Of a stretch of 15,481 nt of DNA, positions 4,343 through 13,370 are shown piece after piece. The translations under genes and the position numbers were made by a program. The notes below the pieces were generated by a model. It saw nothing but the letters and a program-made list of their open reading frames with translations, did no database searches and was not told the DNA's origin. Position 1 is the first letter of the stretch. Each line of letters begins with the position of its first letter. Source of the stretch: Proteobacteria bacterium UBA1844 (GTDB lineage Bacteria; Pseudomonadota; Gammaproteobacteria; Steroidobacterales; Woeseiaceae); the NCBI GenBank assembly GCA_002338615.1, contig DDIS01000029.1:1-15481 (forward strand), written 5' to 3'.

Positions 4343-6040
<1,698 letters not shown>

Positions 6041-6585: not shown

Positions 6586-6895
6586 GACTGTGTCAGAAGA
6601 TCAGGAAAGCAACCGCGCCTACCAACCTATCGAATGCGATGACCATGATTTTGTTGAAATCGCGTGCCTGGATGCGTATGAGGTCGAGCTGGTTACTGAC
6701 GATGGGCCTGTTACCGGTATTGCCGAAACCACGCGCACGGAAGCAGAGGGTGAATTCCTCTGTCTGAAACCGCGGGGCGACGTGGCTCAGCGCGTGCGCC
6801 TGGATCGGATCCGGCGGCTCATCGTGCTGACGCGCCCAAGCCGGTTTCGGGAGCACGACTTCCGCGCTCCACGCGGCAATTGCAAACGAGGGTGA
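6578..6895 (+). CDS. rof: Rof-like Rho-binding antiterminator
   Basis: The 105-residue product contains YQPIECDDHDFVEIACLDAY near its N-terminus and RVRLDRIRRLIVL later. E. coli Rof (YaeO) has YQPINCDDYDNLELAC and ELRLDKI at the same places, so this is very likely the ROF family, an Sm-like small protein that binds Rho and blocks RNA loading. It has about 12 extra N-terminal residues and a basic C-terminal tail (from about residue 86) that E. coli Rof lacks. ATG 6578 overlaps the end of msrB (stop 6583-6585), implying coupled translation; GTG 6590, in frame, is an alternative start. Neither has a clear Shine-Dalgarno sequence. Co-expression with msrB suggests a stress-linked role, but that is inference. 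Confidence 0.85.
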   Translation: MTKTVSEDQESNRAYQPIECDDHDFVEIACLDAYEVELVTDDGPVTGIAETTRTEAEGEFLCLKPRGDVAQRVRLDRIRRLIVLTRPSRFREHDFRAPRGNCKRG

Positions 6896-8946: not shown

Positions 8947-9047
8947 CGATTTCCAGTTTGTATGGTCGCATTCAATATAGACAGACCGTCGAGGTTCGAA
9001 CTTTATTGCACTTTTTATGGTGCAAATGTCAGTGTACGCATGCGCAC

Positions 9048-9215
9048 GGCTCCTGCCCGGTATCCTGCGGAGGCCAGCGCCGGCCATAGGTGCCGCCAGG
9101 GGCAGGCAAGCTCGCGCAAGCCGTGCAATAAAACGACGGGTTCGCCCGGTCCTTGCCCGTAAACGGCCATGCGGATGCCGTTCGAATCGACAAATCGTGG
9201 TTCTGGAAACACGGC
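9048..9215 (-). pseudogene. Remnant of an alpha/beta hydrolase (epoxide-hydrolase-like), N-terminal piece only
   Basis: The minus strand encodes EPRFVDSNGIRMAVYGQG followed by PVVLLHGLRELACPWRHLWP and ALASAGYRAG. This is the start of a classic alpha/beta hydrolase: first strand, HG oxyanion motif in LLHG, and the WRH...PALAxAGYR segment seen in epoxide hydrolases and haloalkane dehalogenases. The frame then goes to unrelated residues and stops at 9015. The nucleophile elbow, acid and histidine are all missing, so this is a truncated, non-functional remnant. It sits between msrP and the ileS T-box and may mark a breakpoint of past insertion or deletion. Confidence 0.75.
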
Positions 9216-9287
9216 GGATCCTGACTTGGATGTGACGGAGTATGGGCCCCGTACTTTAAGGAAATGGTACAAAAGCGCAAAATCGGC

Positions 9288-9316
9288 TTGTTTTTTCGGG
9301 GCGCGACCGCTACCTT
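9288..9316 (+). promoter_or_regulatory. Candidate promoter for the ileS T-box transcript
   Basis: TTGTTT (9288-9293) and TACCTT (9311-9316) are separated by 17 bp. The predicted start near 9323 lies about 10 nt before stem I of the T-box, where a T-box transcript should begin. The -10 box is a poor match, so this is position-supported rather than motif-supported. Confidence 0.4.
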
Positions 9317-9330
9317 CTTCGCCAGACGTC

Positions 9331-9614
9331 GATGGGGACGAGTATGCGGGCCATGCGGCCAAAGCGACCGGAGGAGGGTGTGAGCTCCGGGCCGATATCC
9401 GCTGAACATCACCCCGGAGTTGCTGCCCGAACGAGGCTCGTCAGAGTCTGCCAGTAGGCGCGGCCGCCTGACCCACGAGACGGGTGTCGGATTGATTGAA
9501 TCCATTTGATCGAATCCAGGAGACGGCAACCTCGTGAGGTTGGCCGTGAAACCGGGTGGTACCGCGAATTTTTCGCCCCGGGCGTTTTTCCAGCGCCCGG
9601 GGCGTTTTGTTTTT
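9331..9614 (+). promoter_or_regulatory. T-box riboswitch, isoleucine-specific, transcriptional type
   Basis: The leader contains every core part of a T-box, which senses uncharged tRNA. Stem I base is GGGG (9334-9337) with CCCC (9412-9415). The specifier loop has AGUA (9341-9344) opposite GAAC (9404-9407), followed by specifier AUC (9408-9410), an isoleucine codon, and A9411. The stem continues GCGG (9346-9349) / CCGC (9399-9402), and its distal hairpin CCGGAG (9368-9373) / CTCCGG (9385-9390) carries a GGUGUGAG loop. Stem II is CTCGT (9437-9441) / ACGAG (9475-9479), with inner AGTA and GGCG/CGCC. Stem III spans 9523-9547. The antiterminator pairs CCGGG (9552-9556) with CCCGG (9577-9581) and GCGA (9564-9567) with TCGC (9573-9576), leaving the bulge UGGUACC (9557-9563). 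UGGU matches the ACCA end of tRNA-Ile. A competing terminator follows. Confidence 0.95.
9574..9614 (+). terminator. Regulated terminator of the ileS T-box
   Basis: CGCCCCGGGCG (9574-9584) and its exact complement (9594-9604) form an 11-bp stem with a 9-nt loop, followed by TTTTGTTTTT (9605-9614). The 5' arm shares 9574-9581 with the 3' side of the antiterminator, so the two folds exclude each other. Charged tRNA-Ile should give termination and uncharged tRNA-Ile readthrough into ileS. The ileS Shine-Dalgarno sequence follows immediately. Confidence 0.95.
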
Positions 9615-9627
9615 GGAGTATCTGATT

Positions 9628-12600
9628 TTGACATTCAAAGAAGTAGCTGGCCGATACAACGGACCCGCCCTCGAAACCGAGGTGCTGGAGTTCTGGCGCG
9701 AGCACGACGTCTTCGCCAAATCCCTCGAAGCCAGCAAAGGACACCCACAGTTTAGTTTCAACGAGGGACCGCCGACGGCGAACGGTAAGCCAGGCATTCA
9801 CCACGTGCTGGCACGCAGCTTCAAGGACGTGTTTCCACGTTACAAAACCATGCGCGGCTACTACGTACCGCGCAAAGCCGGCTGGGACACCCACGGCTTG
9901 CCCGTGGAGCACGAGATCGAAAAAGAGCTCGGAATATTCGATAAGAAAGAGATCGAGCGACTCGTCGGTATCGACGAATTCACGCGACGCTGTCGTGAAT
10001 CCGTCATGCGTTATATCGGCGACTGGGAAAAAATGACAGAAAGAATGGGCTTCTGGGTCAATCTTGATGAAGCCTATTACACGCTGGACAACAACTACAT
10101 CGAGTCGGTCTGGAACCTGTTGCAGAGGATCTGGGACAAGGACCTGATCTACCAGGGCTACAAGGTGGTGCCCTACGACCCGCGCATCGGCGCCACGCTG
10201 TCCTCGCATGAGCTCGCGCAGGGATATCGCGAAGTCGAAGATCCGTCAATAACGGTGCGCTTCACGCTAGCGGACCAAAAGGACACCCACTTCCTGGTCT
10301 GGACGACCACGCCGTGGACATTGCCGTCCAATCTCGCGCTTGCGGTCGGTACTGACATCGACTACAGCTATTGCATCGCCGATGGTGAAACGCTGATCGT
10401 TGCCGAGGCCTTGCGCGAGGCCGTGTTTCGAGACCAGGCACATACCGTCGCCAAAATCGTCAAAGGCGCGACGCTGGTGGGCACGCGCTACGAACGGCTG
10501 TTTGACTATCTCGACGTCGATGCGCCAAACGCGTTCCATGTGTTTGCGGCCGACTTCGTCAGCACCGACGATGGCACCGGCATCGTGCACACTGCGCCCG
10601 CATACGGCGTTGATGATCTCGCTCTTGGGCAGGCCAACGATCTGCCGATCGTGCACGGCGTGGGCCTTGATGGATGCTTCATCGACGCAGTCACTCCGGT
10701 TGCCGGTTTGTTTTTCAAGGACGCAGATAAGCCGCTGATCCGTCTGCTAAAAGAGCGCGGATTGATGTTCCGCTCGGAACGCTATAAACACAATTATCCG
10801 TTCGGCTGGCGCACCGGCGATCCAATCATCTATTACGCAAAGAACGCCTGGTACATTCGCACCTCACAGTTTCGCGAGCGCATGGTCGAGCTCAACCAGC
10901 AAATCAACTGGATGCCCCCGCACATCAGGGATGGCCGCTTCGGCAACTGGCTGGAGAACAACGTTGACTGGGCGCTATCGCGCGAACGCTTCTGGGGTAC
11001 ACCGCTGCCAGTCTGGACTGATGGCGCGGGTGCATACCAGTGTATCGGTTCCGTGGCTGAGCTGGAGGAACTGACCGGGCGTGATTTGTCAGAACTCGAC
11101 CTGCATCGCCCGGCCGTTGATGAAATCACGTTCGAAAAAGATGGCAAGACCTGGCAGCGCGTACCGGAAGTCATTGACTGCTGGTTCGATTCCGGCGCGA
11201 TGCCCTACGCGCAGTGGCATTACCCGTTCGAGAACGAAGACAAGTTCACGGCCCATTTCCCCGCCGACTATATTTGCGAGGCCATTGATCAAACCCGTGG
11301 CTGGTTTTACACATTGCATGCGATTGCGACGCTGGTGTCGGACAGCGTGTCCTTCAGAAATTGTATTTGCCTGAACCTGATTGTCGACAAAGACGGCAAG
11401 AAGATGTCGAAGTCGCAGGGCAATATCATCGACCCTTACGACGTCTTCGATACGGTCGGTGCTGACGCCCTGCGCTGGTATTTTCTGGCGAGACTTTCCC
11501 CCGATGTGCCAAAACGAATTTCTGTGGACATCGTTGCGGACGTCGCAAGCTCGTTCATCAATACGTTCTGGAACACTTACGGCTTTTTCGTGCTTTATGC
11601 GAGGCTCGACGACGTAGATCTTGGCAGAAACGTACCCGTCGCAGAACGTCCGGAGATCGATCGCTGGGCCATGGCGCTCACCTTCCACACGGTGACGCGC
11701 GTTACCGAGGCGATGGACAGCTTCGATGCGAAGTCCGCGGGCGAGGCCATCGAATCATTCGTGGACCAGTTGAGCAACTGGTATGTGCGGCGTAATCGGC
11801 GCCGCTTCTGGAAGTCGACGAATCCGGAAGATACGCACGCGGCCTATCTCACCTTGTATCAATGCCTCGATGTGGCACATAAGCTGATGGCGCCCTTTGT
11901 CCCGTTTCTTGCCGAGAATGTGTATCAGAACCTGGTGCGTAGTGTTGATCCTGCGGCGCCCGTCAGCGTGCACATGACCGACTGGCCAGCAGCGGACCCT
12001 TCCTGGCAAAACGACGCATTGCTCGACGATCTCGCCGTCGTGCAGAAAGTTGTCGGTCTCGGGCGTGCGGCGCGTGGCTTGTCGGGTGTGCGAACCCGCC
12101 AGCCTTTATCGCGACTGCTGGTGCGAGCGCCTGACGACGGTGCGGCCAAAGCGCTTGCCGAACACCGGGAACAGGTGCTCGACGAGTTGAACGTCAAGGA
12201 GATCGAGTTTATTGCGCGTGATGCGGGTCTTGTCAGCTATCGGATCAAACCAAACTTGCCGGTGCTCGGGCGTCGTTACGGGAAGCTTATTCCAGCCATC
12301 AGGAAAGCGCTCGATGCAGCTGATGGTGCGGCGATAGCCGGCAGCGTTGCACGCGGAGACAGCTTCACAATCACAGTTGCAGGTGAGGAACTCGAACTTG
12401 CAGGAGACGATGTGCTTATCGAAACCAGCTCGGCCGAAGGTTACGCCTGCGCCGAAGATGCCGGCTACCTGGCCGCGCTGGACACGACGCTGAATGACGA
12501 ACTCGTTGCCGAGGGCATTGCCCGCGAGGTCGTTCGTTCGGTACAGGATGCGCGCAAGCAGGCAGGGCTTGATGTTTCGGACCGGATTGTCCTTGGCATT

Positions 12601-12765
12601 TCCGGTTCAGCCGATGTCGAGCAGGCCGTCGCAAAGCACCGCGGTTACCTGATGACCGAGACGTTGGCGGTGAGCTGGGTCGTGGGCCAGGCTGAGCCCC
12701 TCTACGCGGACGATCGGACGGTCGGGGACAGCCACTGGCGGATCGAGTTCACGCGGCAAGCCTGA
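9628..12765 (+). CDS. ileS: Isoleucyl-tRNA synthetase, type 2 (IleRS2), with swapped GxHH signature
   Basis: IleRS attaches isoleucine to tRNA-Ile and edits mischarged valine. From TTG 9628 the protein has 1045 residues (E. coli IleRS has about 938). TTG 9628 is chosen because GGAG (9615-9618) lies 9 nt upstream and MTFKEVAGRYNGPALE matches the family start; the upstream in-frame ATG 9556 lies inside the T-box. NEGPPTANGKPGIHHVLAR places GIHH (56-59) where HIGH is expected, an exchange of the first His and the Gly. KMSKS is intact (592-596). The CP1 editing domain shows TTTPWTLPSN (226-235) and GTGIVHTAPAYGVDD (316-330). WVNLDEAYYTLDNNYIESVW and the long C-terminal region fit the eukaryote-like type 2 clade. 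The usual ribF and lspA neighbours are absent. Whether a second, type 1 ileS exists cannot be seen here. Confidence 0.97.
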   Translation: MTFKEVAGRYNGPALETEVLEFWREHDVFAKSLEASKGHPQFSFNEGPPTANGKPGIHHVLARSFKDVFPRYKTMRGYYVPRKAGWDTHGLPVEHEIEKELGIFDKKEIERLVGIDEFTRRCRESVMRYIGDWEKMTERMGFWVNLDEAYYTLDNNYIESVWNLLQRIWDKDLIYQGYKVVPYDPRIGATLSSHELAQGYREVEDPSITVRFTLADQKDTHFLVWTTTPWTLPSNLALAVGTDIDYSYCIADGETLIVAEALREAVFRDQAHTVAKIVKGATLVGTRYERLFDYLDVDAPNAFHVFAADFVSTDDGTGIVHTAPAYGVDDLALGQANDLPIVHGVGLDGCFIDAVTPVAGLFFKDADKPLIRLLKERGLMFRSERYKHNYPFGWRTGDPIIYYAKNAWYIRTSQFRERMVELNQQINWMPPHIRDGRFGNWLENNVDWALSRERFWGTPLPVWTDGAGAYQCIGSVAELEELTGRDLSELDLHRPAVDEITFEKDGKTWQRVPEVIDCWFDSGAMPYAQWHYPFENEDKFTAHFPADYICEAIDQTRGWFYTLHAIATLVSDSVSFRNCICLNLIVDKDGKKMSKSQGNIIDPYDVFDTVGADALRWYFLARLSPDVPKRISVDIVADVASSFINTFWNTYGFFVLYARLDDVDLGRNVPVAERPEIDRWAMALTFHTVTRVTEAMDSFDAKSAGEAIESFVDQLSNWYVRRNRRRFWKSTNPEDTHAAYLTLYQCLDVAHKLMAPFVPFLAENVYQNLVRSVDPAAPVSVHMTDWPAADPSWQNDALLDDLAVVQKVVGLGRAARGLSGVRTRQPLSRLLVRAPDDGAAKALAEHREQVLDELNVKEIEFIARDAGLVSYRIKPNLPVLGRRYGKLIPAIRKALDAADGAAIAGSVARGDSFTITVAGEELELAGDDVLIETSSAEGYACAEDAGYLAALDTTLNDELVAEGIAREVVRSVQDARKQAGLDVSDRIVLGISGSADVEQAVAKHRGYLMTETLAVSWVVGQAEPLYADDRTVGDSHWRIEFTRQA

Positions 12766-13001: not shown

Positions 13002-13370
13002 ATGACGACTTACGTCGATCGATTTTTTGCCGCGGTATCCGTGCTTGCCGGCGATGGCTATATAAAACAGAGACTTATACGTGCCTATGCGGACAACCTG
13101 GCAGACATTGATGAAGATGAGCTGCCGGTCGCGGTTAAAGAGGAGTTTGCCGATACTCGCAAATGCATGCACAGTGTCGCACCTATGAACGGCGAGAGCC
13201 CGATCTCGGCCTCCGTGCGCAAGATGTCGGCACGTGAAGCAAGCGCATGTGCACTCGCGCTGTTTTCCATTTACAGCGAGCTGCTCAAGCAGGACGAGGG
13301 TACGCAACGACGACCCGTCAAAAAGAAGAGCACCGCAGCACCGTTTATCGTCAAATCGATTTCACGCTAG
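13002..13370 (+). CDS. Conserved-looking small protein of unknown function
   Basis: This 122-residue soluble protein has no signal peptide or membrane segment and starts MTTYVDRFFAAVSVLAGDGYIKQRLIRAYADNL. The middle is mostly helical and acidic (NLADIDEDELPVAVKEEFAD), followed by a segment SVAPMNGESPISASVRKMSAREAS that looks like a conserved core, and the C-terminus is basic (PVKKKSTAAPF). GGAG (12993-12996) lies 5 nt before the ATG. I cannot assign a function. I have the impression that similar proteins occur in other gammaproteobacteria, but no family name can be given from sequence alone. It has its own promoter and a structured leader of about 150 nt, unusual for so small a gene. It converges on the SRPBCC gene with only 17 bp between stops. 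Confidence 0.85.
   Translation: MTTYVDRFFAAVSVLAGDGYIKQRLIRAYADNLADIDEDELPVAVKEEFADTRKCMHSVAPMNGESPISASVRKMSAREASACALALFSIYSELLKQDEGTQRRPVKKKSTAAPFIVKSISR

Follow-up and report, generated by a model that had tools for sequence, protein, structure and literature searches.

A T-box leader before a type II ileS gene across a gammaproteobacterial family, with predicted tRNA-responsive antitermination

The question raised by this locus is how a T-box, an element that the accessible text of two surveys places in Firmicutes, Actinobacteria, Chloroflexi, Deinococcus/Thermus and a few deltaproteobacteria (PMC2494555, PMC3766115), comes to stand directly before ileS in a gammaproteobacterium. The stretch of DNA that was analysed, called the window throughout, is 15,481 nucleotides long and belongs to a genome of 4.23 Mb in 217 contigs (G000; 93.82% complete, 4.41% contaminated) in which one T-box was found. 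A preliminary description of the window had claimed a complete transcriptional T-box riboswitch of isoleucine specificity, imported into a gammaproteobacterial setting. A match to the whole of the T-box model RF00230 is evident when positions 9320-9614 are compared with Rfam in E-value mode (77.3 bits, E 4.6e-17), and the leader and its gene are laid out as follows.

9320..9583, + strand: T-box leader, full-length RF00230 match (model positions 1-219 of 219; 77.3 bits, E 4.6e-17)
9326..9420, + strand: Stem I with specifier loop and distal loop motif GGTGTGAG (Rfam alignment, covariation)
9341-9344 and 9404-9406, + strand: loop-E strands in Stem I, AGTA and GAA respectively
9408..9410, + strand: specifier codon ATC (isoleucine), ATC in 48/48 aligned T-boxes
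9422..9464, + strand: Stem II with GAA/AGTA S-turn (covariation)
9471..9485, + strand: helix in place of Stem IIA/B (covariation of the helix, its pseudoknot partner aside)
9489..9517, + strand: additional variable helix between Stem IIA/B and Stem III, absent from the RF00230 model
9523..9547, + strand: Stem III (covariation; z -3.65)
9552..9581, + strand: antiterminator, helices 9552-9556/9577-9581 and 9564-9568/9572-9576 (Rfam alignment, comparison)
9557..9563, + strand: T-box bulge TGGTACC, identical in 48/48
9574..9614, + strand: intrinsic terminator, 11-bp stem plus TTTTGTTTTT (hairpin 9574-9604, T-rich tail to 9614)
9628..12765, + strand: ileS2, isoleucyl-tRNA synthetase of type II by its sequence, 1045 aa (TTG start; GGAG at 9615-9618)

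The pairs of the RF00230 alignment were set on window coordinates, and Stem II, the helix in the Stem IIA/B place, the further helix and the terminator were added by hand. The first pair of Stem I is 9326/9420, which puts its start slightly 5' of the 9331 given in the preliminary description. The antiterminator bulge is flanked by helices of 5 bp and 4-5 bp, and since the 5' arm of the terminator (9574-9584) overlaps the antiterminator 3' strand, the two structures exclude each other. The RF00230 search that the preliminary description had proposed for the window thus bears out the T-box over the whole model, at a score below the curated cut-off of 93 bits; with Rfam run at the gathering score no match is listed for the window, which by that score alone would have been called empty. 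The same 93 bits are reached by 14 of the 78 T-box-matching genomes of the order. Other Rfam families suggested within the leader (ncS037, NsiR1, CrfA and others) had scores below their cut-offs, mostly covering the terminator, and were rejected.

When the sequence is folded by itself, the 284-nt leader has a z of -3.11, and the terminator alone is strongly folded (-28.6 kcal/mol, z -5.86). The antiterminator alone gives -10.9 kcal/mol with z -0.83, and Stem I is not recovered by single-sequence folding, its piece having a z of +0.77; given this weak folding of both, Stem I and the antiterminator rest on the model and on comparison. For the comparison we aligned 48 T-boxes: the window's family contributes 45, counting the own genome, a second family, f6, one (L195), and other gammaproteobacterial MAGs two (L164 and L177). 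These are mostly the best-scoring among the 87 gammaproteobacterial genomes found with a T-box, so that the conservation reported here is somewhat overstated.

The alignment reveals a structure that is kept while its sequence changes. Over the named structure 93.0% of 2465 cells are paired, and 40 of the 53 base pairs have two-sided changes, in 336 cells, against a mean of 108.7 in shuffled alignments and at most 71 in slid versions. Each of the five helices of Stem I (86.2-100% of cells paired) has at least one pair with two-sided changes; such changes are found in 5/6 pairs of Stem II (91.7% paired), 4/4 of the helix in the Stem IIA/B place (90.1%), 7/7 of Stem III (89.9%) and 5/5 of the helix at 9489-9517 (85.8%, with 10 rows gapped). 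The antiterminator helices, with 100% and 93.7% of cells paired, are mostly invariant. GAA of the specifier loop is found in 46/48 and AGTA in 40/48, the rest reading AACA or AATA. By a loose criterion a terminator lies behind the T-box in 47/48, the exception being L195; 90.5% of its cells are paired, with 31 two-sided cells versus 9.6 in shuffles, spread over 4 pairs, a number equalled in 111 of 500 shuffles. The leader thus has the sequence and covarying structure of a class I T-box, and every element named in the preliminary description is present before ileS. In three loci (L008, L014 and L022) the terminator hairpin is enlarged by a palindromic, repeat-like insertion that keeps the hairpin and makes it stronger (-73.4, -62.1 and -63.0 kcal/mol, respectively), and L016 carries a shorter insertion of the same sort (-34.8 kcal/mol).

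The arrangement is that of the Bacillota-type class I T-box described by RF00230, with the same Stem I and specifier loop, Stem II S-turn, Stem III, UGGN bulge in the antiterminator, mutually exclusive intrinsic terminator and aminoacyl-tRNA synthetase gene downstream; it differs in its gammaproteobacterial host and in the extra variable helix at 9489-9517, which lies outside the model. The preliminary description had counted three isoleucine identity checks as independent. The ATC specifier fits the downstream ileS, and the three are not fully independent: the U of UGGU asks only for A73, which is present in many tRNAs, and a gene for tRNA-Ile(GAU) was not found (see below). No sigma-70-like promoter was found in window positions 9000-9700.

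In the T-box mode of action as given in the accessible text of PMC12452182, the anticodon of an uncharged tRNA pairs with the specifier and its NCCA end with UGGN, holding the antiterminator. For the window, the partner would be uncharged tRNA-Ile(GAU), pairing with ATC through its anticodon and with the UGGU of the bulge through its ACCA end, and stabilising the antiterminator at 9552-9581; the terminator at 9574-9604 would then be prevented and RNA polymerase would proceed into ileS2. With charged tRNA-Ile, whose blocked 3' end would be kept from the bulge, the terminator, as the more stable of the two structures, would form and end transcription, so that less charging of tRNA-Ile would mean more ileS2 transcription. 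Transcriptional antitermination is thus the predicted mode of action of this leader, and from its structure we infer tRNA binding and antitermination in the host.

The tRNA of this scheme was looked for as a gene. It was not located in the family genomes searched, by patterns in 10, 20 and 26 genomes and by BLAST in 34; BLAST gave matches in 34/34 genomes, none of those listed spanning the whole tRNA at >79% identity, and the 30 loci taken from these matches (L237-L266) held no tRNA-Ile. The pattern did find true genes, confirmed by ARAGORN, in a genome of the same order (G528) and in a Chloroflexota genome (G110, that of L042); a pattern match in G590 was discarded as no tRNA. Because the gene was also missed in two single-contig genomes of other families (G517, G087), we read the miss as a limit of the search rather than as absence of tRNA-Ile(GAU), which should exist to read AUC and AUU codons. 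Among the loci collected, L260, L261 and L265 have a tRNA gene (CAT anticodon) that is split near position 1505, immediately behind the anticodon, by an insert that looks like a group I intron; in L262, L263, L264 and L266 the gene is continuous.

The gene under the leader is itself unusual in this setting. The window IleS matches TIGR00392 at 927.7 bits, over the cut-off; the MupA and MupB models rank next, under their own cut-offs, and DUF5915 lies at the C-terminus. Its HIGH motif, near residue 50, reads GIHH, and the form GXHH, common to most rows of the IleS tree, is described in the accessible part of PMC10485003 as the altered HIGH form of hyper-resistant IleRS2. By these sequence features the window enzyme is a type II (eukaryote-like) IleRS of the IleS2/MupA type; the trees were built from rows other than type I enzymes. 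In its TIGR00392 score, its MupA/MupB neighbours and its GIHH motif it resembles the mupirocin-resistant-type IleRS2; unlike the known IleRS2, it stands under a T-box and is the only IleRS found in the genome of a gammaproteobacterium. It is the single match over the TIGR00392 cut-off in G000, where the other matches are partial and weak; we interpret the four frames concerned (972, 862, 683 and 496 aa) as probable relatives among the class I synthetases plus a chance match.

Within the order, the enzyme follows family lines. Among 147 genomes of the order, all 24 of the window's family (f1) carry an IleS of the window's type at 70-82% identity (100% for the query itself), in one case (G035) in two pieces, and so do four genomes of family f6 at 66-71% identity, three of them as pieces. 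Of the other 117 genomes, one gave no match, and the matches in 116 are much weaker (best E 1.1e-105; identity no higher than 35% among the matches listed), consistent, as far as such distant similarity goes, with type I enzymes. Two genomes of family f8 (G067 and G080) have a different IleS of the wider type, at 38-44% identity, with no T-box match in either genome; this is likely a separate acquisition in the same order. The window's family is likely Woeseiaceae, and the nearest named IleS proteins come from MAGs titled Woeseiaceae, Chromatiales, Gammaproteobacteria and proteobacterium.

The T-box is a family trait. In a set of 99 genomes (the window's own and 98 relatives) it was found in 52, all of the window's genus: 51 of the 60 relatives of that genus and the own genome. 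The RF00230 search of relatives, which the preliminary description had also suggested, gave a T-box in 78 of the order's 296 sampled genomes. The window's family accounts for 77 of these, out of 90 genomes examined, with at least one genome in each of its 12 sampled genera; among the 206 genomes from the rest of the order a single one has a T-box. Class-wide, 2 of 369 genomes carry one, both of the window's genus. These surveys used stricter filters, under which weak T-boxes may be missed; the 13 of 90 family genomes that gave no match under them are 65-93% complete. In G533, a single-contig genome from another genus of the family, the T-box lies directly before ileS. The gammaproteobacterial T-box of the preliminary description is thereby confirmed, as a family-wide element rather than a curiosity of one contig.

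The surroundings of the gene are likewise shared. The neighbours aroQ, dsbD, msrP, msrQ and rof named in the preliminary description were recovered; no RAYT was found among the window ORFs scanned against Pfam, which were part of the window's ORFs. Comparison of the ileS locus across 11 genera shows window neighbours in 10 of them. Of 15 wide family loci, 13 include msrP (L032 and L033 are the misses). A 122-aa ORF on the + strand downstream of ileS (13002-13370), with no Pfam match, recurs in 35 of the 40 loci compared from the family, where copies other than the window's own are 31-65% identical to it; some genomes are represented among these loci by two cuts. Many family loci also have an SRPBCC gene and murI; four loci (L033, L210, L215 and L226) have none of the five compared neighbours, and the L037 locus ends with ileS. 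A gene of the Rof family (PF07073), whose members modulate Rho-dependent termination, lies on the + strand at 6614-6883, 2.4 kb upstream of the T-box.

In family f6 the same enzyme is found in another place, the order ribF-ileS-lspA, which we take to be the usual, native ileS slot of Gammaproteobacteria. G549 has ribF-ileS2-lspA and G572 has ribF-ileS2 up to the end of the piece, both without a T-box, and G596 has ileS2-lspA on a piece from which the start of the gene is missing. G532 has murJ-ribF-T-box-ileS2 up to the end of the piece, with a T-box of 54.6 bits and no terminator of the usual kind found close behind it. A MAG titled Acidiferrobacteraceae (L036) also carries ileS2 without a T-box. 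Downstream of ileS2 in L036, at 5732-5814, an SAH riboswitch (48.4 bits, over the cut-off) lies directly before a frame at 5823.

These loci bear on the first alternative, that the leader came with the gene and was kept as a T-box-like relic, either a constitutive leader or a plain attenuator, with no tRNA sensing. That related ileS2 genes in G549, G572 and L036 lack an upstream T-box indicates that ileS2 can work without the switch, and the aptamer of G532 with no usual terminator close behind fits the same idea; decay of the specifier or of UGGU would then be expected, whereas both are unchanged in 48/48 and the helices change by compensation. We regard a relic as improbable.

Where the unit came from is addressed by the IleS tree. 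In a tree of 52 rows the gammaproteobacterial rows form one clade (support 100) within a clade of 36 rows (100) that also holds Chloroflexota, a cyanobacterium, Trueperaceae and two alphaproteobacteria; of these 36, 29 have a T-box, 5 have none and 2 are left open. Over the 50 labelled rows T-box presence changes 6 times, the label resting on a motif scan for five Bacteroidota rows (L077, L090, L101, L102 and L105), and 33 of the 48 genomes behind the tree loci have a T-box somewhere. The gamma clade and three other subclades meet in an open fork, so that the trees do not settle the donor phylum. A T-box before a related type II ileS is the arrangement of Chloroflexota and of one cyanobacterium as well. 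Of the 17 Chloroflexota loci, 16 have it ahead of ileS and L049 is the exception, by positions taken from genome-search coordinates, motif or Rfam, and matched by hand, that of L075 being 536 bases from ileS. Many of those Chloroflexota genomes have several T-boxes, whereas the window's genome has one. In the Trueperaceae (Deinococcota) loci the T-box is weak in L061 (30.4 bits) and was not found in L053. The cyanobacterial case, Leptolyngbyaceae MO_188.B28 (L052, 3068-3336), scores 95.1 bits; Table 3 of PMC2494555 counts no T-box in 13 cyanobacterial genomes.

A second alternative is old vertical inheritance, with T-box and type II ileS ancestral in Gammaproteobacteria and lost by nearly all others. 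It could account for the same IleS2 in a few other gamma lineages (L034, L035, L036 and the four f6 genomes), yet the T-box is confined to the window's genus in the class-wide survey (the 2 of 369 above), IleS matches in the remainder of the order are distant, and constraining gamma and alpha IleS2 to a single clade gave p-AU 0.022, a rejection of little weight given that an earlier tree had guided the choice of groups. We consider this very unlikely. That the T-box entered the assembly from a Chloroflexota or Bacillota genome by chimera or binning error is next to impossible, for although the assembly is in 217 contigs with 4.41% contamination and its IleS is about 50% identical to Chloroflexota proteins versus 27-35% to those listed for most of the order, the T-box recurs in 12 genera of the family, one as a single-contig genome, with the neighbours shared in 10 of 11 compared genera.

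Together, these results make it highly probable that the leader is a class I T-box, with predicted tRNA-responsive antitermination, which was imported as a T-box-ileS2 unit that displaced the native gene. The import proposed in the preliminary description is supported in this altered form: what came in would be the whole unit with its type II IleRS, not a switch placed before a native gene. For the history we infer that an ancestor acquired the unit from a phylum with T-boxes, Chloroflexota or one of its neighbours in the tree being the likeliest source, and that the unit displaced the native type I ileS. The switch would have persisted in the Woeseiaceae-like family and disappeared from some lineages, including two with ileS2 in the native slot after ribF; from the tree, it was probably present at the root of the gamma clade and lost more than once. 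With less assurance, we lean towards a single crossing between phyla of T-box and type II ileS, after which the unit displaced the native IleRS and became the family-wide control of an essential gene, the switch being lost or in the course of loss where ileS2 sits in the native ribF-ileS-lspA slot.

The T-box is a known kind of element, and its gammaproteobacterial host is new as far as our literature search reaches. That search, over titles and the starts of abstracts, found no report of a gammaproteobacterial T-box and no paper combining Woeseia and riboswitch; subscription papers were mostly outside its scope and an earlier report is possible. Table 3 of PMC2494555 gives a T-box in 2 of 125 proteobacterial genomes. 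The leuA T-boxes of the deltaproteobacteria Geobacter and Pelobacter, as given in the accessible text of PMC2494555, are also proteobacterial in the older sense and differ from that of the window in amino acid, gene and class; the same text has ile T-boxes before ile-tRNA ligase genes in Dehalococcoides (Chloroflexi) and Deinococcus radiodurans. The main text of the TBDB paper speaks of major phyla and does not contain the word 'proteobacteria' (PMC7778990), and the main text of an IleRS2 paper contains neither 'T-box' nor 'Gammaproteobacteria' (PMC4861432).

A terminator-type T-box across a gammaproteobacterial family runs against the known T-box phyla and against the habit of Pseudomonadota, whose riboswitches seldom use transcription terminators (accessible text of PMC12452182). 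Its history is unusually readable, and these lineages allow the retention of an imported riboswitch to be set against its loss. Woeseiales make up 1-22% of the 16S sequences retrieved from marine sediments, according to the accessible part of PMC7082342. If our reading is right, a bacterial group that is among the commonest on the sea floor would have an essential gene under the control of an imported unit, and the family would lend itself naturally to testing what a transcriptional riboswitch of Gram-positive type requires in order to operate with a proteobacterial RNA polymerase.
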